From Palleronia caenipelagi (GTDB taxonomy: Bacteria > Pseudomonadota > Alphaproteobacteria > Rhodobacterales > Rhodobacteraceae): a DNA stretch of 64,000 bases. This document shows, one piece after another, positions 11,555 through 27,214 of this stretch. A program made the position numbers and the translations under genes. The notes beneath the pieces are model-generated. The model was given only the letters and a program-made list of their open reading frames with translations. It was not told the origin of the DNA and did not search any database. How positions within the stretch are numbered: position 1 is the stretch's first letter; every line of letters starts with the position of its first letter. The stretch spans positions 62,001 to 126,000 of the forward strand of contig NZ_VFSV01000007.1 in the NCBI RefSeq assembly GCF_007004065.1, given 5' to 3'.

Positions 11555-12685
11555 TCAGCGCGGCAGCGTGACCCAACTACGGGTTTGGGACGCCTCTTGC
11601 ATCGCTTCTACAGTCTTCTGAACTTCGAGCGCCTCGCGGAAGTCGGGATCGCAGCTGCCACCCGTAGCATGGGCTTCGAGCAGTTGCGCGACCTCGATCA
11701 CCTTCAGGTCGTTGAAGCCCAGATGGTGGCCCGGCGCCGGGCAGAATTGACCATAAGGCGGGTGGGAGGGCCCCGCCTCGATGGTCGTAAATCCTGCCCG
11801 CGCGCCAGACCCGGTGCAGAGCCGCAGCTCGTTCATGTGTTCCTGTGTGAAGGTCACCGCGCCTTTGGAACCGGTCACCTCGAAGGACAGGTCCATCGTG
11901 CGTCCGGTCGCGGCCCAGTTCGCTTCCAGACTGCCTGACACACCGCTCTCGAATTGCACCAGCGCATGGGTCATATCATCGACCACAACGGGTTTGTGCT
12001 CGTCAGAACCCGGTGCGATGGGGCGGGTGGGGTAGATGGTCTTGCAATCGGCGCTGACCTCGGTGATCGGTCCCAGCAGGTGGCGCGCCATGGAGATGAT
12101 GTGGCTGCCGATATCCGCGAGTGCCCCGCCGCCCTGTGGATCCGTGCGGAAGGAGTGGGGCGCGTTGGGGTCGCACATATAGTTCTCCGCGTGACGGCCC
12201 CGAAATCCCGTCACTTCGCCGATTTCACCCGATTCGATGATCTCCCGCGCCAGTCGCACCATCGGGTTGCGCAGGAAGTTGAAGCCCACCGAGGTGACGA
12301 CACCGGCCGCCTCGGCCGCCTCAGTCATCCTGAGGGCCGAAGCTGCCGTGGTCGAGAGCGGCTTTTCGCAATAGACGGTCTTGCCCGCCGCGATCGCCGC
12401 CAGCGCCATGCGTTCATGCAGCACGTTCGGAGCAGTGATGGCGACAATGCCAACCGCATCGTCCTCCACCAGCGCCTGCCAGTCCGCCGTGCCCCGGTCG
12501 AAGCCCAGTGCTGCGGCCTGTTGGGTCGCCAACTCTTCGGTCGCATCGGCCAGAACCGCGCGCACAGGGCGTACGGGCAGATCGAAGAGTCCTCCGACGG
12601 AGGCAAAGGCGTTGGCATGGCACCGGCCCATGAAGCCCGAGCCGATCAGGCCGATCCCAACACTGGATTTCGTATTCTCAGACAT
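11555..12685 (-). CDS. Gfo/Idh/MocA-family sugar or polyol dehydrogenase (first of two)
   Basis: A 376-residue NAD(P)-dependent oxidoreductase. The Rossmann motif is 'GLIGSGFMGRCHA', the catalytic Lys is in 'YCEKPLS', and the second domain has 'DIGSHIISMARHLLG' with the usual Asp and His. Such enzymes oxidise sugar or inositol hydroxyls to ketones. It is the last gene of the operon permease-permease-ATPase-dehydrogenase, four bases after the ATPase stop codon, so it probably acts on the imported substrate. The ATG at 12685 (MSENTKSS) has GGAG ahead; a longer frame to 12703 is less likely. Confidence 0.9.
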   Translation of the reverse strand: MSENTKSSVGIGLIGSGFMGRCHANAFASVGGLFDLPVRPVRAVLADATEELATQQAAALGFDRGTADWQALVEDDAVGIVAITAPNVLHERMALAAIAAGKTVYCEKPLSTTAASALRMTEAAEAAGVVTSVGFNFLRNPMVRLAREIIESGEIGEVTGFRGRHAENYMCDPNAPHSFRTDPQGGGALADIGSHIISMARHLLGPITEVSADCKTIYPTRPIAPGSDEHKPVVVDDMTHALVQFESGVSGSLEANWAATGRTMDLSFEVTGSKGAVTFTQEHMNELRLCTGSGARAGFTTIEAGPSHPPYGQFCPAPGHHLGFNDLKVIEVAQLLEAHATGGSCDPDFREALEVQKTVEAMQEASQTRSWVTLPR

Positions 12686-12689
12686 GATG

Positions 12690-14198
12690 TTACTCCGCAG
12701 CAACAGACGCGGGCTGGTGCGATACCGCGTCGATCAGGTTTTCCTCGGTCAGGCCGTCGCCCTCGAAGGCCGCTACCACGGCTCCCTCGGACATGGTCAG
12801 GACCCGGTGGCTGACGCCCAGAACTTCGGGCATTTCCGACGAGATCACGATCACCGCGAGCCCTTTCTCGGCGAGTTCCGCTATCAGTTCGTGGATCGCC
12901 GATTTTGAGCCCACGTCGATGCCGCGGGTAGGTTCGTCGAGGATGATCAGTTTCGGATTCGCGCAAAGCCATTTGGCCAGTACGAATTTCTGCTGATTGC
13001 CACCCGAGAGCTGAGAGACCGCCTGATCGGGACCGGTGGTCTTGATCGCCAGCGCTTCCTGATACTTGCGGTAGGTCTCCAGCTCCTTCTTCTTGTCCAT
13101 GATCGAGCCGGACGAGAACAGTTGCAGGTGGGGCAGGGACGTGTTTTCCCGCCCGCCCATCATCAGCACCAGCCCCTGCTCCTTACGGCTCTCGGGAACC
13201 AGCGCCATCCCCATGTCGATGGACTGGCGTGGCGTCGGCAGCGGGATTTCCGCGCCATTCCACCAGAGCTTGCCACCATCGGCCTTGCGCACGCCGAAGA
13301 TCGTCTCGACGACCTCCGACCGGCCTGCGCCCACGAGCCCGTAAAGCCCGAGCACCTCGCCCTGACGCACGGAGAAGGACACGTCGCGGAACAGACCCTT
13401 GTTCGACAGCCCCTCGACCCGCAGCACTTCTTCGCCAAACTCTGCCTTCGCCTTGACGAAGTAATTGTCCAGCGTCCGGCCGATCATCATCCGGGTGATC
13501 TGGTTCAGATCCGTGCCCGCCGTATCGACCGTGCCCTGCACCTGACCATCCCGCAGAACGGTGATTCGGTCGGTGATGTCGAAGATTTCGTCCATCTTAT
13601 GGGAGATGTAGACGATGCCGACGCCTTTGCTTTTTAGATTGCGGATGGTCTGAAAGAGCTGGTCTTTCTCATTATCTGTCAGCGAGGCCGTGGGCTCGTC
13701 AAAGATTACAACATTGGCGCGGAATGCCTCGGCGCGGGCGATCTCGACCATCTGCTGCATGGCCACCGAAAGCGTGCCGACCCGGACATCGGGACCGAAC
13801 CCGCAGCCCAGAGCCTTCAGCGCTTTTGCGGAGTTCTGTCGCAATTCGCGCTTTTTCAGGACGCCAAACCGGTTGGTGGGCCAGGCGCCAAGATAAATGT
13901 TCTCGGCCACCGACAGCTCCGGTGAGAGGGACAGCTCCTGGTGGATCAACAGAATCCCCTCCTGCCGGGCCTCCAAGGGACCCGCCACGGTGATGGGTTT
14001 GCCCATATAGAGGATCTCGCCGCCATCGGGCTGGTGCAGACCCGCGAGGGTCTTCATCAGCGTGGATTTCCCCGCCCCGTTTTCGCCCACCAGCGCGTGG
14101 ACCTCACCGGGCCGGATGTCGAAGCTCACCGCGTCCAGCGCCTTGACGCCCGGAAAGGTTTTGGTGATGTCGCGGACTTCCAGAATGACGTCGGTCAT
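12690..14198 (-). CDS. Sugar ABC transporter ATP-binding protein with two ATPase domains (RbsA/MglA type)
   Basis: A 502-residue tandem ATPase. The first half has a full Walker A (GENGAGKST), a signature region 'LSVAMQQMVEIARA' and Walker B 'VVIFDEPTAS'. The second half has the degenerate 'GLVGAGRSE' Walker A typical of the family, signature 'LSGGNQQKFVLAKWL' and Walker B 'LIILDEPTRGIDVGS'. It powers import through the two permeases encoded just upstream. The start is the ATG at 14198, which overlaps the stop of the permease gene by one base; the frame runs on to 14354 without conserved sequence. Confidence 0.93.
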   Translation of the reverse strand: MTDVILEVRDITKTFPGVKALDAVSFDIRPGEVHALVGENGAGKSTLMKTLAGLHQPDGGEILYMGKPITVAGPLEARQEGILLIHQELSLSPELSVAENIYLGAWPTNRFGVLKKRELRQNSAKALKALGCGFGPDVRVGTLSVAMQQMVEIARAEAFRANVVIFDEPTASLTDNEKDQLFQTIRNLKSKGVGIVYISHKMDEIFDITDRITVLRDGQVQGTVDTAGTDLNQITRMMIGRTLDNYFVKAKAEFGEEVLRVEGLSNKGLFRDVSFSVRQGEVLGLYGLVGAGRSEVVETIFGVRKADGGKLWWNGAEIPLPTPRQSIDMGMALVPESRKEQGLVLMMGGRENTSLPHLQLFSSGSIMDKKKELETYRKYQEALAIKTTGPDQAVSQLSGGNQQKFVLAKWLCANPKLIILDEPTRGIDVGSKSAIHELIAELAEKGLAVIVISSEMPEVLGVSHRVLTMSEGAVVAAFEGDGLTEENLIDAVSHQPASVAAE

Positions 14199-15178
14199 CA
14201 ATGATCTCCCCGGTGGTTCAAGGCTTTGTCCAGAACAAGGGCCAGAATGAGCACCGCGCCCATCACCATCAGTTCCACGTAATTCGGCGTATTCAGGAGC
14301 CGCAGCCCGTTGCGCAGCACCGCCAGCGTGAAGACGCCGCCGATGGTCATCCACATGCTGCCATAGCCGCCCTGCAACCGGGTGCCGCCCAGAACCACCG
14401 CGATGATGGTCCAGAGCTCCCAGACCTTGCCCGCATTGGGTTCAGCCGTGCCGAGACGCATGGACAGCAGGATCCCGCAGACCGCCGCGAGCGTGCCGCA
14501 GAGGGTGAAGTTGATGATCTTGTGCCGCTTGACGTTGATGCCCGCATCATGTGCCGCTTCGATATTGTCACCGACCGCATAGGTCTCGCGCCCATGGCGG
14601 GTGCTCGACAGGATCCACTGGAAGAACAGCGCCAGCGCGATGAACAGCATCGCCGTCAGTGAGAGCGGCCCGAGATAGACTTCGGCGATCTCGGTGTAGG
14701 CAAAATCCTCGACCATCAGGGCGTTTTCGCCTGTATAGACAAAGACCAGCCCCCGGATGCCGATCAGCGCGCCCAGCGTCACGATGAAGGAGTGCATCCC
14801 CGACAACGCCACCAGCGTTCCGTTGACGAAACCCAACGCCGCGCCGGACAGGAGCCCGACAAACACTGCTGGCCAGGAGCCGATCACCGGTTGCAGGCCG
14901 ATGGAGAGCGCACAGGCCAGCGCGAGGATGGCGCCCACCGAGAGGTCAATTTCCCCGTCGATCATTACCATGGTCATGCCAATGGCAAGGATCCCGATGA
15001 ACGCGCCTTGGGTCAGGATGTTGCTCATGTTCTTGACGGTCAGGAAGTACGGGCTGGCCAGCGAGAACACGACGATGGTGAGGGCGAGAAACACCCAGAT
15101 GTGGTTACGAAGCAGCCATTGGATCACCGAACCGAAGGGTGACGTGGACTGCGAGGACGTGGTCGTTGCGTCGGTCAT
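14198..15178 (-). CDS. Sugar ABC transporter permease (RbsC type), second
   Basis: A 326-residue inner-membrane permease with eight to ten hydrophobic segments and the family motif 'GEIDLSVGAILALACA' after 'MVMIDG'. The C-terminal 'LGGTRLQGGYGSMWMTIGG' loop is also typical. It pairs with the permease encoded immediately upstream; the ATGA overlap (15175-15178) suggests translational coupling. Its own stop overlaps the ATPase start. Confidence 0.92.
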   Translation of the reverse strand: MTDATTTSSQSTSPFGSVIQWLLRNHIWVFLALTIVVFSLASPYFLTVKNMSNILTQGAFIGILAIGMTMVMIDGEIDLSVGAILALACALSIGLQPVIGSWPAVFVGLLSGAALGFVNGTLVALSGMHSFIVTLGALIGIRGLVFVYTGENALMVEDFAYTEIAEVYLGPLSLTAMLFIALALFFQWILSSTRHGRETYAVGDNIEAAHDAGINVKRHKIINFTLCGTLAAVCGILLSMRLGTAEPNAGKVWELWTIIAVVLGGTRLQGGYGSMWMTIGGVFTLAVLRNGLRLLNTPNYVELMVMGAVLILALVLDKALNHRGDH

Positions 15179-16128
15179 GCGAAGATCCTCCCGCGCTTGG
15201 CGCCCAGATCAATCCAGACAGCGATAATAATGACGGCCCAAGTGACGAGCCACTGCACGTAATAGGGGAAGCCGAGCAGCAACAATCCATTCTGGATAAA
15301 GCCGAGCATGGCGATTCCGAGCACTGTCCGACCGATACTGCCAGAGCCACCAAGCAGGGAGGTGCCCCCGAGGATGATCCCAGCAAGCACGGTCAACTCG
15401 TAGCCTTGGCCGATCGTGTTCTGTGCCCCCATGACCCGGCTGCCCATGATGATGGCTGCCAGCCCTGTCGTGAGGCCGGAGATGACATAGGTCCAGAACA
15501 CTGCGCGCCGCGAGTCGATGCCGGAAAAAACACTGGCGGTCTCATTGCCGCCAACACCGTAAATTTGCCGACCGAAGGTTGTGAATTTCAGCACGAAAGC
15601 GGCGACCGCTGCGGCGGCGAGGAACATGACCACCGGGACCGGTATGCCGAACAGGCTGGCCCGGCCAAATACCGCAAACCAAGTGTCCTGTGCATTGGTG
15701 ATGTTGACGTTTGATCCGCCGGAATAGAACAGGACTAGCCCTTGGAGGAAGGACAGCATCGCCAGAGTCACAATCAGTGAGTTCAGTCCGATGTAACCGA
15801 CCAGTACCCCGTTGATCGCGCCAAGAGCGCAGCCGGCGGCGAGGGTAATGATCATCGCCATGAGCGGGCCGGATTGATTGTGCTGATCGACGACAATCAC
15901 TGTCAGGAGGGTCAGCATCGAGCCGACCGACAGATCGAGACGACCAGTCAGGACCACGAATGTCACGCCCACGGCCATCATACCGGTGATCGAGACTTGT
16001 CGCAGCACGTCGAGAATGTTGCCTGCACTCAGGAACGCGTCAGTATTCAGCGCGACTCCGGCCAGAAAAACCATGAACGCGACGATCAGGCCATGTCGTC
16101 GCAATAATCCCTTCAAAGCGTCTTGCAT
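15175..16128 (-). CDS. Sugar ABC transporter permease (RbsC type), first
   Basis: A 317-residue permease starting MQDALKGLLRRHGLIVAF at the ATG 16128, which has a strong GGAGGAG site. It carries 'LTGRLDLSVGSMLTLL' and 'LGGTSLLGGSGSIGRTVLG', the hallmarks of the ribose/xylose permease family. The frame continues upstream to 16374 through the promoter region and is not used. It heads the reverse-strand transport operon and faces the divergent binding-protein gene across 269 bases that hold two copies of the shared operator motif. Confidence 0.92.
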   Translation of the reverse strand: MQDALKGLLRRHGLIVAFMVFLAGVALNTDAFLSAGNILDVLRQVSITGMMAVGVTFVVLTGRLDLSVGSMLTLLTVIVVDQHNQSGPLMAMIITLAAGCALGAINGVLVGYIGLNSLIVTLAMLSFLQGLVLFYSGGSNVNITNAQDTWFAVFGRASLFGIPVPVVMFLAAAAVAAFVLKFTTFGRQIYGVGGNETASVFSGIDSRRAVFWTYVISGLTTGLAAIIMGSRVMGAQNTIGQGYELTVLAGIILGGTSLLGGSGSIGRTVLGIAMLGFIQNGLLLLGFPYYVQWLVTWAVIIIAVWIDLGAKRGRIFA

Positions 16129-16189
16129 TGGATAAACTCCTCCCTGCTGCCGAGGATAGGGACAGTGACAGCACTGCAAACGGCAGAAA

Positions 16190-16204
16190 AATCCAGATCG
16201 GATT
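16190..16204. promoter_or_regulatory. Operator site A of the sugar cluster
   Basis: AATCC, AGATC, GGATT is a perfect five-base inverted repeat with a five-base spacer. It lies 61 bases before the permease start on the reverse strand. The central ATCCAGATCGGAT is identical to that of site C at 19246-19262. A plausible reverse-strand promoter (TTTGCA, 16 bases, TATCCT) lies between it and the permease gene, which would put the site just upstream of the -35 box. Confidence 0.6.
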
Positions 16205-16271
16205 ATTCCCGGTTGCCGAGGGCCTGACAGGGCTAAGCGCTGCCCGCTCGCTGGAGTGGTCTGCGGCAAGA

Positions 16272-16288
16272 ATGTCAGATCTGGATAT
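16272..16288. promoter_or_regulatory. Operator site B of the sugar cluster
   Basis: ATGTCA, GATCT, GGATAT on the forward strand; read on the reverse strand it is ATATCCAGATCTGACAT, sharing 14 of 16 aligned bases with site C. It lies 109 bases before the binding-protein start. Sites A and B therefore each serve one side of the divergent promoter region. Confidence 0.55.
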
Positions 16289-16397
16289 TTCTGCGATTGA
16301 GCGATGCCACCAACTGCCGATGATTGGGGACACAGCGCCCGTCGAGCTGCAGACGGGCGCCCCTGAATATCCAAGGCAGCGCGCAGAGGAGGAACTC

Positions 16398-17387
16398 ATG
16401 ACGAAACTGACCCAAATGCTGGCCACGACCACGGCCGTCGCCCTGATTGCCGGAGCGGCCATCGCCGAGGACGCGCCCGACTGGTTGGGTGGTGAGCTGA
16501 AAAAGCCCCTGTCCGAGACCCGGATCGGCATCACCGTGCTTTATCCCGGCTCGAACGCCTATCAGGCAAAATATGCTGAAACGGCAGAGGCTTATAGTGC
16601 CGAGCTGGGCATTCAGGCAACCGTGATGGACCCCCAGGGCGACCCGTCCACCCAGTTTGACCAGATCCAGGACATGGCGTCCCAGAACCCCGATGCTCTG
16701 GTGGTCTGGCCGACCTCTCAGAACGCGCTGATCCCCGCGATTCGCGAAGCATCGCGGAACGACATTCCCGTGATCACCTCGAACTCGCCCATTGGCGAGG
16801 CGGGTCGCCGCTACATCGCCGGGCACACCGGCCCCGATGATTGCGCTCAGGCCGAGCAGTCCGCTGAAATGCTGGGCGACGCTCTGGGCGGTGCTGGCAA
16901 TATCGTCGTGGTCGAGGGCACGCCCGGTTACACCGTGTCGATCCTGCGGAAGAACTGCTTCCTCGACAAAATGGCTGACGCCTATCCTGACATCGAGATC
17001 CTCGCCAGCCAGACCGCCGAATGGAACCGTGAGAAGGCTCAGACCCTCATGGAGACCTATCTCACCCAGTTTGGTGACGAGATCGACGGCGTCTATGCCT
17101 TCGATGACGGCATGGGCCTCGGCGTGGTGAGCGCATTGCAGGGTGCGGGCAAAGAGCCCGGCGACATCAAGGTCGTCACTTGTAACCAGTTCGGCGAAGG
17201 CTGGGACAAGATGAAAGAAGGCTGGATGACCGGCACCAACAAGCAGTCGCCGATCGACGATGCGATTCTCGCGATCCAGACCGCAATCAAGGTGGCTAAT
17301 GGCATCGAGGTTCCCGCGCTTCAAGGCATCGAGACGCCGAAAGTGACCCCGGAGAACGTGGACGAATTCGAACGTCCTACCTGGTAA
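16398..17387 (+). CDS. Periplasmic sugar-binding protein of the RbsB family
   Basis: A 329-residue periplasmic binding protein. The signal peptide is MTKLTQMLATTTAVALIAGAAIA, and the mature protein has the type I binding fold with 'ITVLYPGSNAYQAKYAETAE', 'NPDALVVWPTSQNALIPAIR' and 'VDAY..D'-like segments ending in 'VYAFDDGMGLGVVSAL'. It should deliver substrate to the divergently encoded permeases. The ATG at 16398 has GAGGAGG ahead; the frame is open back to 16128 but that part is promoter DNA. A terminator follows. Confidence 0.92.
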   Translation: MTKLTQMLATTTAVALIAGAAIAEDAPDWLGGELKKPLSETRIGITVLYPGSNAYQAKYAETAEAYSAELGIQATVMDPQGDPSTQFDQIQDMASQNPDALVVWPTSQNALIPAIREASRNDIPVITSNSPIGEAGRRYIAGHTGPDDCAQAEQSAEMLGDALGGAGNIVVVEGTPGYTVSILRKNCFLDKMADAYPDIEILASQTAEWNREKAQTLMETYLTQFGDEIDGVYAFDDGMGLGVVSALQGAGKEPGDIKVVTCNQFGEGWDKMKEGWMTGTNKQSPIDDAILAIQTAIKVANGIEVPALQGIETPKVTPENVDEFERPTW

Positions 17388-17412
17388 ATCCAGACTCTAT
17401 CTCTCCCGAACT

Positions 17413-17439
17413 GGGCCGCGCCATTGGCGCGGCCCTTTT
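17413..17439 (+). terminator. Rho-independent terminator of the sugar-binding protein gene
   Basis: GGGCCGCGCC (17413-17422) pairs with GGCGCGGCCC (17426-17435) around a three-base loop, followed by TTTT. It isolates the binding-protein transcript from the convergent regulator gene. Confidence 0.88.
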
Positions 17440-17462
17440 CTGTTGAGGTGGTTGCAGTGGAA

Positions 17463-19166
17463 TCAATAGTGTCCCCGCGACCTCATCAGCGTATCGAGGC
17501 GATTCTGCGCGGAGGCCAGTGCGTCCTTGACCGACACTGCGCCCTGAAGCATGGCGTGGATATCGTCGCCCAGAACATTCAGCATGTCGCGAAATTCGGG
17601 CACGGGCGGGCGCGGCCAGGTCTTGAGCGCACCGCGTCGCTCCATGGCGTCCACCTCCGCGATCAGTGCGCTGCTGGCCTGTACCTCCGGATCCGCGCTC
17701 GTGGAAAATCGGGGGCTCGTGAGGTTGCCGTGCTGGACATACCATTTCAGCATTTCGGGGCGAGTGAGATACTCCATCACCTTCCACGATGCCGCCTTGC
17801 GCGCGGGATCAAGCCCTTCGGGAATCGCCAGTGAAAACCCCCCGATAGGCGAGACGCTGCGCGCGCCCTCGGCATGGGGGTGCGGCATGTAGCGAACCTT
17901 GCCATGAGCAGGGGAGGTCTCGTCCCGCTCAAACGTGGCCGCACGGATTGTCCAACCGTAGGTCATCGCCGCCTCACCCCGGGCAAAGATCCCGATCCGC
18001 CGGTCCCAATTGCAGATCATGCTGTCTTTATGAGAGAATTCCAGCAGCTCCATCAGGAACTCCGCAGCCTCTCGCGCGGCCTCTGTGTGTAGCTGGGGTC
18101 GGTAGGTTTCCCCTTCGATCGAGGTGAGGTCGAATTCTTCGCCAATCGCAGTCAGGTTGATCAGAGGTTGCCCGAAATCTGCGAGCGTCTGAATAAAGCT
18201 GTGGGCGACAGGGGTGCCGCGCCCGTAATTCATCACGATCCCGGCTTGGTTAAAGCCGTTGCGATGCAGCACACGCGCGGCCAGAATCACATCATCGGTG
18301 GTTTCTGGCAATGACAGGCCAGCCTCGGCAAACAGATCTTCGCGGCAGAACAGAAGTTCGGCGGTGGGCTGGATCGGCAGGCCGTATTGCTGGCCCGACC
18401 AACAGGAGCCGCGATAGGCGGCAGTGTGAAAATCGGACGGATTGTAGCGCGCGGCTTCCATGATGTCGTCAAGCGGCGCGATGACACCTTCGGTGGCGAG
18501 CTGGCCGATCCATGGGAGATCCACCGCCACCAAGTCGTATTTTGACACTCGGTTGGCCGCGTTTTTCATGATCTCGTCATGAAGCGGATCGATGGGCATG
18601 TTCACAATCTCGATCCGCGCGCCGCAGAGTTCGTCCAGATTGGACGAAAATTCGCTAAGCGTCTTAAAGGTTGGATCAATGGGGCACAGGATGCGGAAAA
18701 CACGATCAGTGCCCACCCCGGCTCGCATAGCGTGGGGATAGGAGAGGATCCGCGACGCCATGTAATAGCCGCCGAAATAGAAGTCGCTGATGTCCCCGTC
18801 GCCGTCGGTAAAGCCGAATGTCTTGCCCACCATCGCCTTGAGCTGCATGGCAAAGCTCTCAAACTCCGAGATAAGTTTGCGCGTCGGATGAAGGGAAAAG
18901 GATTTGCCCGAGCGGGATTTCGGGCGTTTGTACAACAGCCCTTCGTCGATCAGCTCAGTGATCCGCCGCATGGCTGTGCCATAGGGCGCATCCGAGGCCA
19001 TCGCCGCGGAGGTGACGGTCAATAACTTGCCGTCGAAATGCCGCCGCATGGCATAAGAGATTATGTTCCAGCGCGGATCGATCCGCGCCAGAGAGGTCCG
19101 CTGTTCAGAAATTTCACGACTGGAATCAACGAAATCCAGGATCCTCAGCAGTTCTTCGCGGGTCAT
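17463..19166 (-). CDS. Predicted transcription regulator: winged-helix domain fused to a family-1 solute-binding protein fold
   Basis: A 567-residue protein with no signal peptide or membrane segment. Residues about 45-95 ('LLTVTSAAMASDAPYGTAMR', then 'RITELIDEGLLYKRP' and 'SGKSFSLHP') read as a MarR-like winged helix with recognition helix and wing. From about residue 155 the chain follows the SBP_bac_1 pattern, with 'DLVAVDLPWIGQLATEGVIA' and 'GLPIQPTAELLFCREDLF', ending in the usual 'MLKWYVQHGNLTSPR' and repeated helices. These domains normally belong to exported binding proteins. Here the fold probably senses the sugar in the cytoplasm. The ATG at 19166 has AGGAGAC; site C of the shared motif lies 79 bases upstream, implying autoregulation. 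The DNA-binding role is inferred. Confidence 0.75.
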   Translation of the reverse strand: MTREELLRILDFVDSSREISEQRTSLARIDPRWNIISYAMRRHFDGKLLTVTSAAMASDAPYGTAMRRITELIDEGLLYKRPKSRSGKSFSLHPTRKLISEFESFAMQLKAMVGKTFGFTDGDGDISDFYFGGYYMASRILSYPHAMRAGVGTDRVFRILCPIDPTFKTLSEFSSNLDELCGARIEIVNMPIDPLHDEIMKNAANRVSKYDLVAVDLPWIGQLATEGVIAPLDDIMEAARYNPSDFHTAAYRGSCWSGQQYGLPIQPTAELLFCREDLFAEAGLSLPETTDDVILAARVLHRNGFNQAGIVMNYGRGTPVAHSFIQTLADFGQPLINLTAIGEEFDLTSIEGETYRPQLHTEAAREAAEFLMELLEFSHKDSMICNWDRRIGIFARGEAAMTYGWTIRAATFERDETSPAHGKVRYMPHPHAEGARSVSPIGGFSLAIPEGLDPARKAASWKVMEYLTRPEMLKWYVQHGNLTSPRFSTSADPEVQASSALIAEVDAMERRGALKTWPRPPVPEFRDMLNVLGDDIHAMLQGAVSVKDALASAQNRLDTLMRSRGHY

Positions 19167-19245
19167 CTCGGGTCTCCTGACTGCGGGCGCAGCGCACCAA
19201 TAGCTACAGGAAACCGCGATTTTCGGCGATCAAACCACAATGGAT

Positions 19246-19262
19246 ATATCCAGATCGGATAT
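19246..19262. promoter_or_regulatory. Operator site C, upstream of the regulator gene
   Basis: ATATCC (19246-19251), AGATC, GGATAT (19257-19262) is a perfect six-base inverted repeat with five-base spacer, the best example of the motif shared by all four intergenic regions of the cluster. It sits between the stop of the second dehydrogenase and the regulator start. Confidence 0.65.
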
Positions 19263-19271
19263 TCAGTTCAG

Positions 19272-20285
19272 CTACGTGCCGTAGTCGGGACAGACAAATT
19301 GCCGGGTCTTTGCGGAGGTCTGACAGGCCAGCGCGATGGCCAGTGCGTCGCGCCCATGCTGCGCTGTGGCTGAGGGCTGGCGATCCTCGATAATTGCCCG
19401 GTGGAACTCGTCCAGCGCGTTGTAAAAGGACTGATCATAGCGCTCGAGGAAGAAGTGCTTAAGCGGTTCCCGAGCCTCCGTCCGCCTGCCGTCCCAACGG
19501 ATCAGGGGATCATCGCGGTGGTTGATGGTCTGGAGCATTCCGTCATCGCCAAAGGCTTCAAGCCGTTGATCAAACCCATATGCACAGGCGCGGGAGTTAT
19601 TGATATGAACCAACGCACCGGAGGGCATCCGGAAGGTGGTCATCGTGAGGTCGAAATCGCCTTCGGCCCCGATCTCGGGGTTGAACACGCAGGAGCCGGA
19701 GGCGTGGACCTCGACCGGGCGCTCCCCGGCGATCCAGCACAGCAGGTCGATATCGTGGATCGTTGCATCAACGAAGTAGCCCCCGGACGCGCGGACATAT
19801 TCGATAGGCGGCGGCGCAGGCTCGCGCGACCAGCTCATGAGCATGGTCAGGCGCCCGATATCTCCATTTTGGACAGCCGTCCGCAGCGCCCCGTTATCCG
19901 GGTCGAACCGACGGTTAAAGCCCAGCATGAACGGCACCGGATGTGCCTCCAGCGCGGTCAGCGCCCGGTCGACCCGGTCCAGCGTCTGGTCGAGCGGCTT
20001 TTCGCAGTAGATTGGTTTGCCCGCGCGGGCCACAGTTTCGATGTAATCCACATGGGTGTCGGTAGGCGTTGCGATTACCACCGCGTCCACCGCCGGATCC
20101 TTGAGCGCGTCCTCAAGATCTTCGGTCGCCCGGCCTCCGTACAGATCGACCGCCCTCTGCGCCGATGCGATGCGGTGGTTATACACCACTTCGAGTCGCA
20201 GCCCGGGATGGGCGTTGATCTTCGGCCCATACACATGGGCCATCCGACCTGCGCCGAGCAGGGCGATACCGAGCTGTGTCGTCAT
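19272..20285 (-). CDS. Gfo/Idh/MocA-family dehydrogenase (second; inositol 2-dehydrogenase-like)
   Basis: A 337-residue NAD(P)-dependent oxidoreductase. It has the Rossmann motif 'LGIALLGAGRMAHVYGP', 'ATPTDTHVDYIE', catalytic Lys in 'YCEKPLDQ', and 'FVDATIHDIDLLCWIAGE' with the conserved Asp-x-x-x-His-D. This layout is close to bacterial inositol dehydrogenases (IolG), but the substrate is not certain. The ATG at 20285 overlaps the stop of the GMC oxidoreductase gene (ATGA), so the two are translated from one mRNA and may act in sequence. The open frame to 20576 is an artefact inside the GMC gene. Confidence 0.88.
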   Translation of the reverse strand: MTTQLGIALLGAGRMAHVYGPKINAHPGLRLEVVYNHRIASAQRAVDLYGGRATEDLEDALKDPAVDAVVIATPTDTHVDYIETVARAGKPIYCEKPLDQTLDRVDRALTALEAHPVPFMLGFNRRFDPDNGALRTAVQNGDIGRLTMLMSWSREPAPPPIEYVRASGGYFVDATIHDIDLLCWIAGERPVEVHASGSCVFNPEIGAEGDFDLTMTTFRMPSGALVHINNSRACAYGFDQRLEAFGDDGMLQTINHRDDPLIRWDGRRTEAREPLKHFFLERYDQSFYNALDEFHRAIIEDRQPSATAQHGRDALAIALACQTSAKTRQFVCPDYGT

Positions 20286-21883
20286 GCGGTCACCTTTGCG
20301 TCTTCGAGGATCAGGGACGCAGCCTTCTCGCCGATCATGATCGAGGCGGCGTTGGTGTTGCCTGTCACGATGCGCGGCATGATGGATGCGTCCGCGACCC
20401 GTAATCCGTCGATGCCGTGGACCCGGAGACGCGGATCGACCACCGCATCGGGACCGGTTCCCATCTTGCAGGTTCCCACTGGGTGCAGGAGCGACAAGCC
20501 ATTGGCACGGCAATAGTCCAGCAGCGCATCGTGGGACTGGACGTCCTTGCCCGGCGCGATCTCGTAATCGACGCAATCGGCCATGGGTTGGGTCTCGGCA
20601 ATCTTGCGCCCGAATTGCAGTCCCGCGATGGCCGCGCGCTGATCGGCTTCGTCGGCAAAGAAATTGAACTGGATCTCAGGCTGCTGATCGGGTTTCGGCC
20701 CCTTGATCCGGACGTGGCCCCGCGAGTTCGGACGCATATGCTCCGCGAGGATCGTAAAGCCAGAGAACGGATGCGGCTTGAGCTGCTCATCGGTGCACCA
20801 CGCCATAAAGGTCACCATCATATCGGGGCGGTCAATCTCCGGACCGGATCGAATGAACGTATTGGAATAATTGCCATTATCAGCGAAAGGACCGGTGCGG
20901 AACAACAGATGCCGCAGGAGTTGCAGTCCACCCTTCAGTTTATTGTTGTAGAGATCATTCACTGTCGAGGACACGGTCGAGCGATACTCCGCTCCGATGC
21001 CGAAATGGTCCTGAAGGTTCTCACCCACGCCCGGCAAATCATGGGCCACGTCGATGCCATAGTTCTGCAGCAGCGCCCCGGGTCCGATACCGGAGATCTG
21101 CAGGATCTGGGGCGAATTGAACGTGCCGCCGCTGAGAATGATCTCGCGCCGTGCGGTCGCTTGATGGGCACCGCTCTTGTCGGTCCAGCGCACGCCGGTT
21201 GCACGCCGGCCCTCCAGCACGATCCGGTCTACCATGGCGTTTAGGCGCAGATCGACGTGCTGCTTGGCCTTGCCCTTCAGATAACCCGCCGCCGTGCTCC
21301 AGCGGCGACCGTTCTTGGTGGTCGTTTGGACATAGCCCGTGCCCTCCTGCTGAGCGCCGTTGAAGTCATCATTGCGCGGCACACCGAGCGCTTCCGAGGC
21401 CGCGTGGAACGCCTCGCCCAGCTCGTGCTCAGTCCGGATATCGGACACCGCCACCGGGCCGCCAGTGCCGTGATAGTCATTAGCGCCGCGCTCCTGATCT
21501 TCGCAGGATTTGAAGAATGGCAGAACGCCATCCCAGCCCCACCCGGTGCAGCCTGCCTCTTCCCATCCGTCGAAATCCTCGGGCTGGCCGCGCATGTAGA
21601 TCATGCCGTTGATCGCGCCAGTCCCGCCCAAAACCTTGCCCCGCGGCTGGAACAGGCGACGGTTGTTCAAATGCGGTTCGGGAGCGCTCTCGTAACACCA
21701 GTTCACCTTGGGATTGGCGTAGAGCATGGAATAGCCGAGCGGGATATGGATGAACGGGTTCGTATCCTTGCCGCCCGCCTCGAGCAGCAGCACTGAATGC
21801 CCCGCCTCGCCAAGCCGACCGGCCACGGCGCAACCCGCTGATCCTGCCCCAATCACGATATAGTCAAACGTTTCCCCGGCCAT
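20282..21883 (-). CDS. GMC-family FAD-dependent oxidoreductase (choline dehydrogenase-like)
   Basis: A 533-residue flavoprotein. It has the FAD dinucleotide motif 'DYIVIGAGSAGCAVAGRL', GMC signature 1 'RGKVLGGTGAINGMIYMRG', signature 2 'GGTFNSPQILQISGIGP', and the C-terminal catalytic region 'LLHPVGTCKMG' with His and 'GNTNAASIMIGEKAA' with Asn. Family members oxidise primary or secondary alcohols to aldehydes or ketones. I prefer the ATG at 21883 (GGGAGG ahead) to a GTG at 21892. It starts the two-gene operon with the inositol-dehydrogenase-like gene, and a weaker copy of the cluster operator lies 69 bases upstream. Confidence 0.9.
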   Translation of the reverse strand: MAGETFDYIVIGAGSAGCAVAGRLGEAGHSVLLLEAGGKDTNPFIHIPLGYSMLYANPKVNWCYESAPEPHLNNRRLFQPRGKVLGGTGAINGMIYMRGQPEDFDGWEEAGCTGWGWDGVLPFFKSCEDQERGANDYHGTGGPVAVSDIRTEHELGEAFHAASEALGVPRNDDFNGAQQEGTGYVQTTTKNGRRWSTAAGYLKGKAKQHVDLRLNAMVDRIVLEGRRATGVRWTDKSGAHQATARREIILSGGTFNSPQILQISGIGPGALLQNYGIDVAHDLPGVGENLQDHFGIGAEYRSTVSSTVNDLYNNKLKGGLQLLRHLLFRTGPFADNGNYSNTFIRSGPEIDRPDMMVTFMAWCTDEQLKPHPFSGFTILAEHMRPNSRGHVRIKGPKPDQQPEIQFNFFADEADQRAAIAGLQFGRKIAETQPMADCVDYEIAPGKDVQSHDALLDYCRANGLSLLHPVGTCKMGTGPDAVVDPRLRVHGIDGLRVADASIMPRIVTGNTNAASIMIGEKAASLILEDAKVTA

Positions 21884-21952
21884 CTGGACCACCTCCCAAG
21901 GTGTGTTTCGATTGAGCGTTGCATGGGGTCCGCGTGTTGCAGAAGATAGGAA

Positions 21953-21969
21953 ATATCAGTTTTGGATGG
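21953..21969. promoter_or_regulatory. Operator site D (weaker), upstream of the GMC oxidoreductase gene
   Basis: ATATCA, GTTTT, GGATGG matches the shared motif in five of six left-arm and four of six right-arm bases with the same five-base spacing. It is the weakest of the four sites, but its position before the operon fits the pattern. Confidence 0.4.
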
Positions 21970-21997
21970 ATTGATGCGCGCTGCATGAGGCGGGCGC

Positions 21998-22747
21998 TCA
22001 GCGACTACCGCAGATCGGGCACGAGGGCTGTCGTGGGATTGGCGCTGCCTGCCATTCGGCGGAGAGGCTGTCGTAGAGCAACACGCGCCCCACCAGCGCA
22101 CTGCTGCCAAAATTGAGGATGTTCAGCGCCTCGGTGGCCTGCATGGAGCCGATCGTTCCCGTCAGGGACGCCAATACCCCGGTGGCCGCGCAGCGGTCTT
22201 CTTCGACTGCGGCGTCTTCGGGCAGGAAGCAGGCATAGCAGGGCGAGGCCGCGTCTCGCGTATCAAACACGGTGATCTGTCCGGCAAAGCGGATCGCCAT
22301 CCCGACCACGTTTGGCTTGCAAGCGGCGGCACAGGCGCGGTTCACAGCGTGTCGGGTGGTGAAGTTATCGCTGGCATCGACCACCACATCGGCTTCCGCA
22401 ATCAGCCTGCCCAGTTCCTCCGGGCCCACCCGCTGCGTGACCGACCGTACCTCGCAGCCGGGGTTAATCCCAGCCAGTTCGGTTTGGGCGGAGAGCGCTT
22501 TGTTCTGGCCGATCCGGGTTTCGCGGTGCAGAATCTGGCGCTGGAGGTTCGTCAGGTCCACCAAGTCGCCATCGCAGATCGTCAGCCGTCCAACCCCGGC
22601 GCTGGCCAGATAGAGCGCCACTGGTGAGCCGAGTCCTCCCGCGCCGATGATCAGCACATGGCTCGCCATGATCCGCTCCTGCCCGGCAATGTCTATCTCG
22701 CCAAGGAGGATGTGGCGGCTGTAACGCAGGAGGTCCTTGTCCTCCAC
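21998..22747 (-). CDS. ThiF/MoeB-family adenylyltransferase of the aldehyde oxidoreductase cluster
   Basis: A 249-residue E1-like enzyme. It has the ATP-binding loop 'VLIIGAGGLGSPVALYLASA', 'DLTNLQRQILH', 'DASDNFTTRHAVN', and the four zinc cysteines in 'CYACF' and 'CPIC'. Such enzymes adenylate the C-terminal Gly-Gly of MoaD or ThiS proteins so that sulfur can be attached. A MoaD-like gene lies two genes upstream in the same operon, so this is probably its private activator in pyranopterin cofactor synthesis. The start is a GTG at 22747, directly before the conserved LLRYSRH region. It is the last gene of the operon. Confidence 0.88.
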   Translation of the reverse strand: MEDKDLLRYSRHILLGEIDIAGQERIMASHVLIIGAGGLGSPVALYLASAGVGRLTICDGDLVDLTNLQRQILHRETRIGQNKALSAQTELAGINPGCEVRSVTQRVGPEELGRLIAEADVVVDASDNFTTRHAVNRACAAACKPNVVGMAIRFAGQITVFDTRDAASPCYACFLPEDAAVEEDRCAATGVLASLTGTIGSMQATEALNILNFGSSALVGRVLLYDSLSAEWQAAPIPRQPSCPICGSR

Positions 22748-22749
22748 CG

Positions 22750-23061
22750 CTACCCACCGCCTCTCTGAAAGGTCGTCTCGAACCGTCGCAGGAATGCGAT
22801 GCGGGCCGCATCGTCGAGCCCGGTCATATCGAGCACAACGCGGGCGCGCGGCAAGCGCATCAATGGGCTGAGCTGCGCATCGGGCTGGGGTTCAAAGGTG
22901 CAGCGCACCGGCGCGCCAGCGGCCTGCGAAAGATCATAGCCGTCGCCATTGCTCAGCAAGCGACCCCCCGTGAGCCGTCGCAGTCCGTTCTCGAATTCAG
23001 GGCGGGTGAAGGACATGATCTTTTCCACCCGCTCGCCGGGGATGCCCGTTGTGAACGCCAT
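22750..23061 (-). CDS. Uncharacterised 103-residue protein of the aldehyde oxidoreductase cluster
   Basis: I do not recognise a domain. It is soluble, with no signal or membrane segment and one cysteine (about residue 54). Segments 'FTRPEFENGLRRLTGGRLL' and 'LDDAARIAFLRRFETTFQRG' look helical, around a beta-rich middle. The gene is tightly packed: its ATG is two bases from the MoaD-like stop codon, and its stop is three bases from the ThiF/MoeB-like start. That position suggests a role in cofactor assembly or enzyme maturation, for example as a partner of the MoaD-like protein. Function is unknown. Confidence 0.7.
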   Translation of the reverse strand: MAFTTGIPGERVEKIMSFTRPEFENGLRRLTGGRLLSNGDGYDLSQAAGAPVRCTFEPQPDAQLSPLMRLPRARVVLDMTGLDDAARIAFLRRFETTFQRGGG

Positions 23062-23062
23062 T

Positions 23063-23314
23063 CTAGCCCCCCGCTACCGGAGGCCAGACGGCGAGCACAT
23101 CAGAGTCCTTCAGCGCCACGGTCTCGCGCTCTTCGGGGGCGTGGAACACGCCGTTGACCAGGACCAGATGGCATTTTTCCCGGGGCACTTTATGGTGATC
23201 CAGCAGGCTCTGGATAGTCGTGCCCTCGGCCACGTCCAGATCCACCTTGTTGCGCTGCGCTTCTCGCGGGAGAAAGCTGCTGAGCGAGGCAAAAAGCTTC
23301 AGCGTGACCTTCAC
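23063..23314 (-). CDS. MoaD/ThiS-family sulfur-carrier protein
   Basis: An 83-residue beta-grasp protein ending in Gly-Gly (…WPPVAGG), the site that is adenylated and thiocarboxylated. 'MKVTLKLFASLSSFLP' at the start and 'LVLVNGVFH' in the middle match MoaD-like proteins. It lies between the FAD subunit gene and the unknown 103-residue gene, and probably provides sulfur for the dithiolene of the tungsten or molybdenum pterin of the aldehyde oxidoreductase. In the Aromatoleum cluster a comparable gene is named aorD. Confidence 0.88.
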   Translation of the reverse strand: MKVTLKLFASLSSFLPREAQRNKVDLDVAEGTTIQSLLDHHKVPREKCHLVLVNGVFHAPEERETVALKDSDVLAVWPPVAGG

Positions 23315-23327
23315 GTTTCGTCCTCCG

Positions 23328-24614
23328 TCACGCGGGCAAGGCCACTTTGGGCCCGGTATAGCCCGAAACAGGCCCCTGCTGCATCACTGCCACATAGGCT
23401 TCGGCGATGCGGGTTGGGCTGTCGATGAGCTTGTTCTTCCACGCGCCCAGAGGCAAGCCCGTCTGGATCAAGCCACGCAGCATTCCCACATGGTCGGTTA
23501 GCCCCACCGTCTGGGCACCGATCAGGCGGTCGCCCTCGAATTCCAGCCTGATGTAGCGGCCAGCGGCCTCATCGGTCAGCACCGCGCGGTCGCCACCCTC
23601 GACTCCTTCCCAAGTGCCAAAGGACGAGGAGATCAGGCCGAGCGTATCGAGCACGTTCATGTTCAGGCTGCCCCGGTGCTCGGTGGCGATTCCGCACATA
23701 TTGAGCGCCGCGATATAGGCGTGTTCCACCGCCACCGGCTGGATCGCCAGCATGTCATTATGGCCGGTGGACAGGTTGATGCCTTCGGCTACGTCCCCCG
23801 CCGCATAGATGCCCGGCACATTGGTCTCGTGATAGGGATCCACCTTCACGCCCGCGCCGGTTTCGATCCCGCTGCCGTCGAGGAAGCCGATATTCGAGCG
23901 CACCCCGGTCGCGATCACCACCAGCGCAGCGGGCAGGGTCTGACCGTCTTTGAGATGGACGGCCAAGGCAGCGCGATCCCCGGACCGGATCGCGTCCACC
24001 TCCGCCTCGGTGATCACGCGCACGTCCTGACCTTCGCACCAGTGGCGCAGCATGTTGCCCGCAGTCTCGTCCAGCATCCGGGGCACCATCCGGTCACCGC
24101 GCTCGACCACCGTCAGATCGACCCCCATTTTTGCCAGCGACTCGAGTATGATGCAGCCGATGAATCCGGCACCGACCAGCACCACCGGCTCGCCTTTCTG
24201 CGCGTGTTCGGTGATCCGGCGGGCATCCTCCAGCGTCCAGCAGGTGTGGACACCGGGACTGTCCAGCCCCTCGATCGGTGGGCGAATGGGGGTGGCGCCC
24301 GTGGCGATCAGCAGCGTGTCAAAGCCGAGCGTGCTGCCATCGGCGCAGGTCACCGACCGGGCACCCGTGTCGACGGAGATCACCGGACCGTGACGATAGG
24401 CTATCCCCAGCGTCTCGTAATGACCATCCTCTTGACGCAGATGGGTGCCGTCCTCGCCGATCTTGCCCTCCAGCAGATAGGGGATCGCCATGCGCGAATA
24501 GGGTGGCTCGCCCTCGCCGCCGATCAGCGTGATCTCTGCGTCGGGGGCGTGTTTGCGAATGGTCTCGGCGGCGGTGACACCGGCCGGACCGGCGCCCAGA
24601 ATGACGTGATACAT
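23328..24614 (-). CDS. aorC: FAD-dependent NAD(P)H oxidoreductase subunit of aldehyde oxidoreductase
   Basis: A 428-residue pyridine-nucleotide-disulfide-type flavoprotein. It has the FAD motif 'VILGAGPAGVTAAETIR', the NAD motif 'PVVLVGAGFIGCIILESLA' and the second FAD motif 'VPGIYAAGDVAEG'. There is no redox-active disulfide CxxxxC, so it is not a thiol reductase. In the three-subunit AOR of Aromatoleum aromaticum the equivalent AorC subunit passes electrons to NAD. The ATG at 24614 has GGGAGAG ahead. It sits between the AOR catalytic gene and the MoaD-like gene. Confidence 0.88.
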   Translation of the reverse strand: MYHVILGAGPAGVTAAETIRKHAPDAEITLIGGEGEPPYSRMAIPYLLEGKIGEDGTHLRQEDGHYETLGIAYRHGPVISVDTGARSVTCADGSTLGFDTLLIATGATPIRPPIEGLDSPGVHTCWTLEDARRITEHAQKGEPVVLVGAGFIGCIILESLAKMGVDLTVVERGDRMVPRMLDETAGNMLRHWCEGQDVRVITEAEVDAIRSGDRAALAVHLKDGQTLPAALVVIATGVRSNIGFLDGSGIETGAGVKVDPYHETNVPGIYAAGDVAEGINLSTGHNDMLAIQPVAVEHAYIAALNMCGIATEHRGSLNMNVLDTLGLISSSFGTWEGVEGGDRAVLTDEAAGRYIRLEFEGDRLIGAQTVGLTDHVGMLRGLIQTGLPLGAWKNKLIDSPTRIAEAYVAVMQQGPVSGYTGPKVALPA

Positions 24615-24656
24615 GGAACTCTCCCGGTTTCCGGCAAGGCTGCGAGGTCGAAAGTG

Positions 24657-24685
24657 CCGGGCCGGAGGATCAGTCCCCGGCCCGG
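24657..24685 (-). other. Intercistronic hairpin between the AOR catalytic and FAD subunit genes
   Basis: CCGGGCCGG (24657-24665) and CCGGCCCGG (24677-24685) form a perfect nine-base stem just after the stop codon at 24693 of the reverse-strand catalytic gene. No T tract follows, so it may protect the upstream mRNA or lower expression of the downstream genes. Confidence 0.5.
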
Positions 24686-24692
24686 GCAAGCG

Positions 24693-26540
24693 TCAGAGCG
24701 CCAGACGCGCCACAGTTTCGCTGGTGGGCACACCGTCCGGGGTCCAGCCGCGCAGCTCGTAATATTCGGGCAGCATCTTATCGAGTCCCGCCACGAGGCC
24801 CTTGGCCGGGCCGGTTTTCGCGGCGTCCTTCAGGAGCCGCTTAGGCAGATTGTCATCCTCCGCCGTAAAGCCCGCATTATTGTTGAACATCCGCTCCATG
24901 TTCCAGATGCGCTCGCCAGCCTCCAGCATCTTGTCCACGGTCCAGTTGCCCTCGCAGGCCGCGTCCACCTGCGGCGCGATATCCTCCAGCGTCCAGGCAA
25001 AGGTCGTGAAGACGCACAGGCCCGAGCTGTCCACGGCGGCGGTGGCGTCCTGGAACGCCTTGACCAGACCGGCCTTGCCATCGGTGGTCAGCGGATCGGT
25101 TTTCTCCGGGATGCCAAGGATTTCCGACGATACCGTGTAGGACCGCAAATGGCAGGCGCCGCGGTTTGAGGTGGCGTAGGTCAGGCCCATGCCCTGAATT
25201 CCGCGCGGGTCATAGGCAGGGAATTCCTGACCCTTCACCGTCATCGACAGCTCCGGCTTGCCGTATTTCTCGGTCAGCCGTTTCGAGCCAAGCCCCAGCT
25301 CCTTGCCAAAGCCCTCGGCCTTGCCGGTCGCCTCGACACAGGCCACCAGCGCCTCGGCAGAGCCAAAGTTCAGCTTGATGCCGCCAGTCACCGCGTCGTC
25401 GATCACCCCGGTCTCGTAGAGCTCCATTGCCGCGCCCACGGTCGCGCCGAAGGAAATCGGGTCGATGGCCTGCTCATTGCAGATGAAATTGACGTAAGTG
25501 AGTGCTTCGAGATCGTTGATCCCCGTCGCCGAGCCCAGCGCCCAGGCGGCTTCATATTCCAGGCCGCCCGAGGCATGCCAGTATTCGGGCTTGTTCTGGA
25601 TGGTGAAATGGGTCTCATCGATTTTCGAGATCCGCCCGCAAGCGATGGTACACCCAAAGCACGCCTGATTGGTCAGCAGGTTTGGCTTGCCATCACTGCG
25701 GCGCGGCGTGGCCATGGCCTCGGCGGAGATGTCGTTCGCGCTCTCGAACTGGACATCCTGGCCGTTGCGGGTGGGCAGCGCGCCGGTCTCGTTGATGACA
25801 TTCATCAGCACCTGGGTGCCATAGGCGGGCAGGCCCTCGCCGGTGACGGCGTTTTCCTTCAGAACCTTCTTGCCCGCATTGGTCGCGTCCATAAAGGTCT
25901 TGAAATCCCGGACCTTCACCCCGCCAGTGCCGCGCACCGCCACGGCCTTGAGGTTCTTGCTGCCCATCACGGCGCCCACGCCCGAGCGGCCCGCCGCCCG
26001 GTGCAGGTCGTTGACCACGCAGGCATAAAGGATCTCGTTCTCGCCCGCGACGCCGATGGCGGCGACGCGGATCTGCGGGTCCTGATGGGCTGCCTTGATC
26101 CCCTTATCCGTGTCCCAGACCGTTTTGCCCCAGTAGCCGCTGGCATCCCGGATCTGCACATCGCCGTCAAAGATCGTCACGTAGACCGGCTTGGGCGACT
26201 GGCCCTCGAAAATGACCATGTCCCAGCCCGCGAATTTCAGTTCGGCGCCGAAATAGCCGCCTGAGTTCGAGCAGGCGATGGCGCCGGTCAGCGGGCCCTT
26301 GGTGATGATCGAATAGCGCCCGCCGGTGGAGGCACAGGTACCAGTGAGCGGCCCGGTGGCCATGATCATCTTGTTATCGGGACCCAGCGGATCGGCCCTC
26401 GGGTCCACTTCCTCGACCAGATATTTTGAGGCAAGCCCCCGCTGGCCGAGATATTTATCGGCCCAGTCCATGTTCAGCGCTTCGGTGGCGATAGTGCCGG
26501 TGCTCAGGTTGATCCTGAGTATCTTTCCTGTCCATCCCAT
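24693..26540 (-). CDS. aorB: Aldehyde:ferredoxin oxidoreductase, tungsten (or molybdenum) pterin catalytic subunit
   Basis: A 615-residue AOR-family enzyme oxidising aldehydes to carboxylic acids. The N-terminal beta domain starts MGWTGKILRINLSTG. 'GGRYSIITKGPLTGAIACS' belongs to the pterin-binding domain. The [4Fe-4S] ligands are C294, C297 and C301 in 'CFGCTIAC' and C509 in 'DSSGLC', matching the spacing known from the Pyrococcus enzyme. 'AYDPRGIQGMG' is the second DxxG-type pterin region. Length is normal. It is the second gene of the operon, after the iron-sulfur subunit. Tungsten use is inferred from the family. The ATG at 26540 has AGGAGA. Confidence 0.94.
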   Translation of the reverse strand: MGWTGKILRINLSTGTIATEALNMDWADKYLGQRGLASKYLVEEVDPRADPLGPDNKMIMATGPLTGTCASTGGRYSIITKGPLTGAIACSNSGGYFGAELKFAGWDMVIFEGQSPKPVYVTIFDGDVQIRDASGYWGKTVWDTDKGIKAAHQDPQIRVAAIGVAGENEILYACVVNDLHRAAGRSGVGAVMGSKNLKAVAVRGTGGVKVRDFKTFMDATNAGKKVLKENAVTGEGLPAYGTQVLMNVINETGALPTRNGQDVQFESANDISAEAMATPRRSDGKPNLLTNQACFGCTIACGRISKIDETHFTIQNKPEYWHASGGLEYEAAWALGSATGINDLEALTYVNFICNEQAIDPISFGATVGAAMELYETGVIDDAVTGGIKLNFGSAEALVACVEATGKAEGFGKELGLGSKRLTEKYGKPELSMTVKGQEFPAYDPRGIQGMGLTYATSNRGACHLRSYTVSSEILGIPEKTDPLTTDGKAGLVKAFQDATAAVDSSGLCVFTTFAWTLEDIAPQVDAACEGNWTVDKMLEAGERIWNMERMFNNNAGFTAEDDNLPKRLLKDAAKTGPAKGLVAGLDKMLPEYYELRGWTPDGVPTSETVARLAL

Positions 26541-26600
26541 CGGAAAATCTCCTGTAAGACGTCTGTTCTCTCAGCCCTTCAGAGGGCGAACGGTGCAAAA

Positions 26601-27092: not shown

Positions 27093-27214
27093 GACAGTCC
27101 TCCCGGTGGTCTGGTCGGGCCACACAGGGTGACCACCCGACAACCGCCACGTTAGGACGACAATGCGAAACCTCCAAAAGAATAATTTTCGACAAGAGTC
27201 TGATGGAGAAATTG

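Follow-up and report, generated by a model that had tools for sequence, protein, structure and literature searches.

In LacI/GalR regulators, a DNA-binding head is joined to a type I periplasmic-binding-protein fold that acts as the sugar sensor, and a type II fold is also used for sensing by the LysR-type regulators. The archaeal TrmB contains a MarR-like head and a sugar-binding domain, the latter not being of the solute-binding-protein fold. MarR-type regulators mostly repress and autoregulate, and we know of no MarR protein with a separate sensor domain. Fusions of GntR with SBP_bac_1 seem to be present in Firmicutes. Passages of one report (PMC13060122) describe SgrR and DsvR as regulators composed of a helix-turn-helix and SBP_bac_5 (type II fold), tied to sugar metabolism, and state that SgrR controls a small RNA. 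SgrR, with a winged helix and SBP_bac_5, is the nearest characterised design, and the type II fold as a cytoplasmic sensor therefore has a precedent. Libraries of transcription factors in which binding proteins are joined to DNA-binding domains have been engineered, according to passages of PMC6079105, and a general statement in passages of PMC9602780 holds that Pfam binding-protein domains serve also as sensors of transcriptional regulators. In the open-licence PMC literature, no description was found of a cytoplasmic transcription factor that contains a family-1 binding domain, or of a version combining family 1 with MarR.

In our study, the window (the whole stretch of DNA analysed, 64,000 nucleotides) was found to contain a gene for a MarR-like winged helix joined to a family-1 solute-binding domain, within a sugar cluster (Table 1). 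We read the product, with a probability of about 0.85, as a one-component, cytoplasmic, ligand-responsive transcription factor with a MarR-type head and a family-1 sensor. Like SgrR and DsvR as described in the passages of PMC13060122, it has an N-terminal DNA-binding domain, a whole type II solute-binding domain and a link to sugar metabolism; unlike them, its binding domain belongs to family 1 instead of family 5, and it sits beside a CUT2 transporter. The first-pass annotation had known of no characterised example of such a sensor, which does not stand for the type II fold generally and can hold at most for family 1. The regulator shares with LacI/GalR the logic of a head plus a binding-protein fold, but its fold is type II, and neither a LacI helix-turn-helix nor a type I binding fold was found in it with Pfam, AlphaFold2 and Foldseek. 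As in TrmB, a MarR-like head is joined to a sugar-binding domain, but the sensor here is of the solute-binding-protein fold. The winged-helix fold and flanking helices are shared with the MarR/SlyA repressors (Foldseek), from which the regulator differs by its separate binding-protein domain. The CUT1 binding proteins 5iai, 1eu8 and MalE3 have the same fold over about 400 residues, at 19–23% identity, but they are transporter parts, whereas the regulator lacks a leader and carries a DNA-binding domain. Membership in SgrR itself was rejected, as neither domain fits. SgrR_N, which we take to be the name of the SgrR DNA-binding domain, was absent from the Pfam matches of the regulator (E ≤ 1) and from the 25 listed of the 29 families matching 30 N-terminal domains, and the sensor matched SBP_bac_8 and SBP_bac_1 only, not SBP_bac_5. 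The chimeras in the passages of PMC6079105 are man-made, whereas the regulator is natural.

Table 1. Coordinates of the predicted features in the window
Feature	Position	Strand	Basis
Gfo/Idh/MocA-type dehydrogenase, nearest model levoglucosan dehydrogenase (307 bits, cut-off 650)	11555..12688	minus	
CUT2 ATPase (AraG/XylG/RbsA-like)	12690..14195	minus	Profile
CUT2 (RbsC-like) permease 2	14198..15178	minus	Profile
CUT2 (RbsC-like) permease 1	15175..16134	minus	Profile
Predicted operator between the divergent permease and binding-protein genes, score 26.2	16271..16289	plus	Pattern and matrix
Exported type I (RbsB-like) sugar-binding protein of the CUT2 transporter	16398..17387	plus	Profile; hydrophobic leader
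Regulator gene, 567 aa (MarR-like winged helix and family-1 solute-binding domain)	17463..19166	minus	ORF, Pfam, AlphaFold2, Foldseek
Family-1 (maltose-binding-type) solute-binding domain, proposed sensor, residues 157–567	17466..18698	minus	Pfam, PDB sequence matches, AlphaFold2, Foldseek
Linker, residues 118–156, low confidence at 118–138	18699..18815	minus	AlphaFold2
Winged-helix DNA-binding domain, residues 1–117	18816..19166	minus	AlphaFold2 of the N-terminal alignment, Foldseek
Predicted operator upstream of the regulator gene, AATATCCGATCTGGATATA, score 24.9	19245..19263	minus	Pattern and matrix
Gfo/Idh/MocA dehydrogenase, nearest model inositol 2-dehydrogenase (346 bits, cut-off 355)	19272..20285	minus	
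GMC-family oxidoreductase (choline-dehydrogenase-like, 571 bits, cut-off 605)	20282..21892	minus	
Predicted operator upstream of the GMC oxidoreductase operon, score 26.6	21952..21970	plus	Matrix

The reading frame was found at the position given by the first-pass annotation, starting from an ATG. An in-frame stop was present 22 codons upstream of this ATG, and the absence of any ATG, GTG or TTG between the two leaves no longer form with a leader. Over its first 60 residues, the Kyte-Doolittle mean of a 15-residue stretch peaked at 0.74, and in the relatives this value was at most 1.43 (n = 79, first 60 residues). Of the controls, the exported binding protein of the neighbouring gene gave 1.94 and L004 gave 1.67; three further controls, which had been read from a wrong start or in a wrong frame, were left out. 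Export was judged from start codons and hydropathy, and by these the export signal of ABC-transporter solute-binding proteins was not found in the regulator; the earlier claim that it has no signal peptide was borne out by the non-hydrophobic N-terminus and the absence of an alternative start. The comparison was based on 80 loci, the best of at least 440 stretches which encoded a relative at E ≤ 1e-3 in a scan of named genomes. In 79 of the 80 the match ran in one stretch from residue 5 or before to residue 560 or beyond, and an artefact of assembly or frameshift was rejected; the remaining locus, L099, begins at a contig edge. The database name suggests another reading, that of an exported ABC-transporter solute-binding protein with an odd N-terminal extension. 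A relative was found in 33 plasmid records, including 12 of Phaeobacter, and was labelled 'extracellular solute-binding protein' in 26 and 'periplasmic component' in one, the others having no feature there (four) or being unannotated records (two). This reading is extremely improbable, because the protein has neither leader nor alternative start, the winged helix is conserved across the family, and a CUT1 permease was matched near only one of the 80 loci by queries of limited sensitivity, the CUT1 proteins of one plasmid.

The head was modelled with AlphaFold2 from its N-terminal 145 residues (30 sequences), with a pLDDT of 82.7. The 24 residues below 50 were located at the tail, and the 10-residue block means ranged from 75 to 97 across residues 1–120. 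The predicted elements, helices 3–23, 31–45, 51–57 and 62–74 (the recognition helix), strands 78–82 and 90–94 (the wing) and helix 96–117, are those of a MarR-type winged helix. The first-pass annotation had placed a winged helix at residues 45–95; the fold stood, but its extent was larger, as the predicted winged helix occupied residues 31–94 with helices 3–23 and 96–116 on either side. The best Foldseek match was the MarR regulator 3e6m (E 5.5e-4), and mostly MarR-type regulators were present among the best 50 of 1614 matches. Since only 2 of the 1614 had E ≤ 0.001, the MarR assignment rests on the fold more than on the score. The N-terminal profile matched SlyA/MarR best in the PDB, weakly (E 0.027). 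In Pfam, MarR_2 matched 24 of 30 members at E ≤ 1 (best 2.9e-5) and TrmB was weakly matched by 12 of the 30 N-terminal domains at the same threshold. The curated MarR/MarR_2 cut-off was not reached by the regulator (MarR_2, 12.2 bits against 27; L117 scored 21.2), and no match to its residues 1–150 was listed at E ≤ 1. Lack of a winged helix, or export, had been named beforehand as grounds for dropping the proposal; at the level of prediction, the winged helix was found and export was not.

The family-1 fold, proposed earlier for residues 155–567, was recovered by Pfam as SBP_bac_8 (1.6e-19, residues 181–500) and SBP_bac_1 (3.7e-19, residues 208–471). The SBP_bac_1 and SBP_bac_8 scores were 71.2 and 70.3 bits against cut-offs of 27 and 26, and in NCBIfam no match of the regulator came near any cut-off. 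The full-chain AlphaFold2 model (31-sequence alignment) had a mean pLDDT of 87.1 and a pTM of 0.73, with the binding-protein fold running from residue 157 to about 563–567. Its best Foldseek match was 5iai (E 6.6e-30, TM 0.91 over the target), and the best 50 matches listed were sugar or solute-binding proteins. The solved relatives found by sequence were also sugar-binding proteins, with 5iai the best (1.4e-27, and 1.2e-47 with the family profile). One may suppose that this domain has become a relic, or that it serves protein-protein contacts, docking for example on transporter parts, so that the DNA-binding regulator would have no ligand sensor; the linked transporter does own an RbsB-like binding protein. 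Against this, 72 of the 81 positions invariant in 31 sequences fell in the binding domain (411 of the 567 residues), among them D216, W219, Q266, T268, E270, N313, R316, W387, R390 and R519. Opposite D216, W219 and R519, identical residues were found in 1eu8 in the HMMER alignment, and these presumably belong to the sugar site of 1eu8. We consider the relic or docking module improbable and prefer a ligand sensor.

The sensor is of the CUT1/maltose type, whereas the linked transporter is of the CUT2/ribose type. The idea that the sensor duplicates the binding protein of the cluster was rejected, as the latter is RbsB-like. A CUT2 ATPase and permease were found in 70 of the 80 loci; when only the 54 loci of at least 17 kb are counted, 53 have both, the exception being L080. 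The window's own genome contained 15 CUT2 permease matches in 4.02 Mb, which would make chance linkage far rarer than the linkage seen. In 12 of 42 close relatives (L046–L051, L054, L057, L062, L073, L074 and L083), a different CUT2 cassette (30–40% identity) was present and the regulator was kept, as were the GMC oxidoreductase and the dehydrogenases where the contig covered them; in L054 the mocA2-like match was only 40%. The swap of the transporter, with the regulator and enzymes retained, suggests that the sensor follows the compound and not the transporter, and it fits the sensing of a compound better than docking on transporter parts. Judged by the enzymes, the substrate might be a polyol, inositol or anhydrosugar. 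By translation, genes for ThiF/MoeB-like, FAD oxidoreductase, aldehyde:ferredoxin-oxidoreductase-like and ferredoxin-type proteins (21998–27143 of the window) adjoin the cluster, possibly a tungsten-enzyme locus.

A predicted operator of about AATRTCMGATTTGGAYRAA, with the core TCC-N5-GGA, was found to recur upstream of the regulator gene, in the paralogous clades too. Nucleotides 19246–19262 form a perfect 6-5-6 inverted repeat. The 6-5-6 pattern with at most two mismatches occurred six times in the window against 0.98 expected, and none of 100 shuffles reached six; another of these six matches is also the 16272 site, and the other four were located away from matrix sites. Relatives of 55–78% identity contained a mostly common AATRTCAGATTTGGAYRAA located 75–97 bases before the regulator start, and the surrounding bases differed. 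A matrix was trained on 29 distinct upstream sites of relatives, with the window excluded and L067 (score ≤ 8) left out. In the 64-kb window it gave exactly three sites scoring at least 18 (16271, 19245 and 21952), the next best being 13.9. The first-pass annotation had claimed a shared operator before each unit, and indeed one matrix site each was present at the transporter genes, the regulator and the oxidoreductase operon. The matrix found no site of at least 18 in 300 kb of mononucleotide-shuffled sequence.

Of 41 relatives (the 42 close loci without L050, which has too little upstream DNA), 38 had a site of at least 18 upstream of the regulator gene and three had none, a count that is partly circular, as these regions served for training. 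Outside the training set, such a site was found in the divergent transporter promoters of 21 of 27 relatives. It was absent in six (L039, L045, L052, L053, L065 and L070), five of which had weaker sites of 14.7–17.8. Elsewhere in the relatives, only five sites of at least 18 were found in 614 kb, three of them preceding a GMC or second regulator gene. In the own genome (4.02 Mb), a degenerate pattern, written after the three cluster sites had been seen, gave 10 matches with at most one mismatch against two for the reversed control; both perfect matches were in this cluster, and the third cluster site was among the eight one-mismatch matches.

In the paralogous clades (L099 excluded), 60 copies of the core TCC-N5-GGA were counted in the 400 bases upstream of 45 regulators, against a mean of 6.1 and a maximum of 11 in 200 shuffles. 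At least one core was present in 35 of the 45 regions, and none was found within 400 bases upstream of the other 10 distant regulators, the own-genome paralog included. After similar regions were thinned, 51 cores remained in 40 regions (shuffles 5.2, maximum 13). The cores were located at recurring distances, for example –166, –155, or –216 together with –195. In one paralogous clade (L087, L090, L095, L096, L106, L107, L110, L114 and L115), pairs of TCC-N5-GGA 21 bases apart were found upstream of the regulator, and some of these loci contained a third site near –112, –103 or –51. Judged by sequence, a specific operator is present at the putatively regulated genes, as is expected of a one-component transcription factor.

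From these features we infer that the MarR-type winged helix would bind, as a dimer, to the AATRTCMGATTTGGAYRAA-like sites at its own gene, the divergent CUT2 promoters and the oxidoreductase operon. A dimer is proposed because the operator is palindromic and the head has flanking helices. The family-1 domain may act as a clamshell sensor for the imported sugar, polyol or inositol-like compound, or for its first oxidation product. Closure of the clamshell would alter the spacing of the two DNA-binding heads and lead to release of the DNA or, less likely, enable DNA binding, and the substrate would in this way induce the genes for its uptake and oxidation. Promoter-like matches in 16100–22100 were at chance level (3 against 2.4 expected), so repression or activation cannot be read from position. 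Repression is nevertheless favoured as the probable mode, because of the kinship with MarR-type regulators, whose habit of repression and autoregulation speaks against activation, and because of the autoregulatory placement of the sites. The same architecture might instead work as a ligand-dependent activator. This would also suit the paired operators of one paralogous clade, whose spacing is about 21 bases (e.g., –216 and –195), and passages of PMC13060122 report positive control of sugar uptake by the SgrR-like DsvR. The sites near the regulator's own gene argue against an activator, which we regard as a tentative and rather unlikely alternative to the repressor.

Relatives of the regulator at E ≤ 1e-60 were found in 50 of 295 sampled genomes of the window's family (Rhodobacteraceae), and full-length matches at 1e-60 in 6 of 398 genomes of a phylum-wide sample. 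The 80 loci were mostly of Rhodobacterales and other Alphaproteobacteria, with Marinobacterium, Grimontia, Salinisphaera and Paraburkholderia in addition. Both domains stay joined in relatives down to about 35% identity, and a second copy of 40% identity was found in the own genome, beside another CUT2 transporter. In a quick tree, 92 regulators and four ordinary binding proteins were set apart, with the regulators in several clades; the own-genome protein L004 was left out (no match), and only the coarse clades were used because the outgroup branches were long. The alignment rows L025, L028 and L029, having a TGA in the matched stretch, were trimmed and contained no stop inside. It is quite likely that these proteins form a large family in which a cytoplasmic maltose-binding-type clamshell with a MarR-type head uses one common operator to control the genes of CUT2 transporters and sugar dehydrogenases. 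If this is true, evolution has turned the maltose-binding fold to the switching of genes, just as the other binding fold was turned to it in LacI, and the annotation of many proteins called extracellular binding proteins would be corrected. An operator would then be at hand for regulon prediction in marine and plant-associated bacteria whose sugar clusters are uncharacterised, and natural templates would be available for biosensors of the kind that engineers build from binding proteins.

The N-terminal domain was detected at 1e-10 in 14 of 385 genomes of a class-wide sample, six of these matches being weak. The weak relatives had no binding domain in five of five scanned (the sixth, in G461, was outside the scan), and these five were response regulators with a receiver and a MarR-like winged helix, a result that suggests domain shuffling. 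The family probably exchanged its head with response regulators that occur in other Alphaproteobacteria and carry a related winged helix behind a receiver. Response regulators with a related DNA-binding domain were located in other Alphaproteobacteria at L128 496–1566, L129 507–1574, L130 2585–4270 (minus), L131 1837–2820 (minus) and L132 931–1986 (minus), and may represent an unnamed response-regulator output type.

Two family regulators per locus, on opposite strands, were found in L054, L055, L056, L058, L059, L064 and L083, with transporter and/or enzyme genes between them and the second regulator from other clades. The contig of L099 was binned as Bacteroidetes, yet it fell inside a Proteobacteria clade, possibly owing to a binning error. 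A divergent member was located at L133 3307–4992 (minus) in a 1.4-Mb genome (G323), where it faces the gene of an exported binding protein, followed by a CUT2-type ATPase and permease behind that gene.
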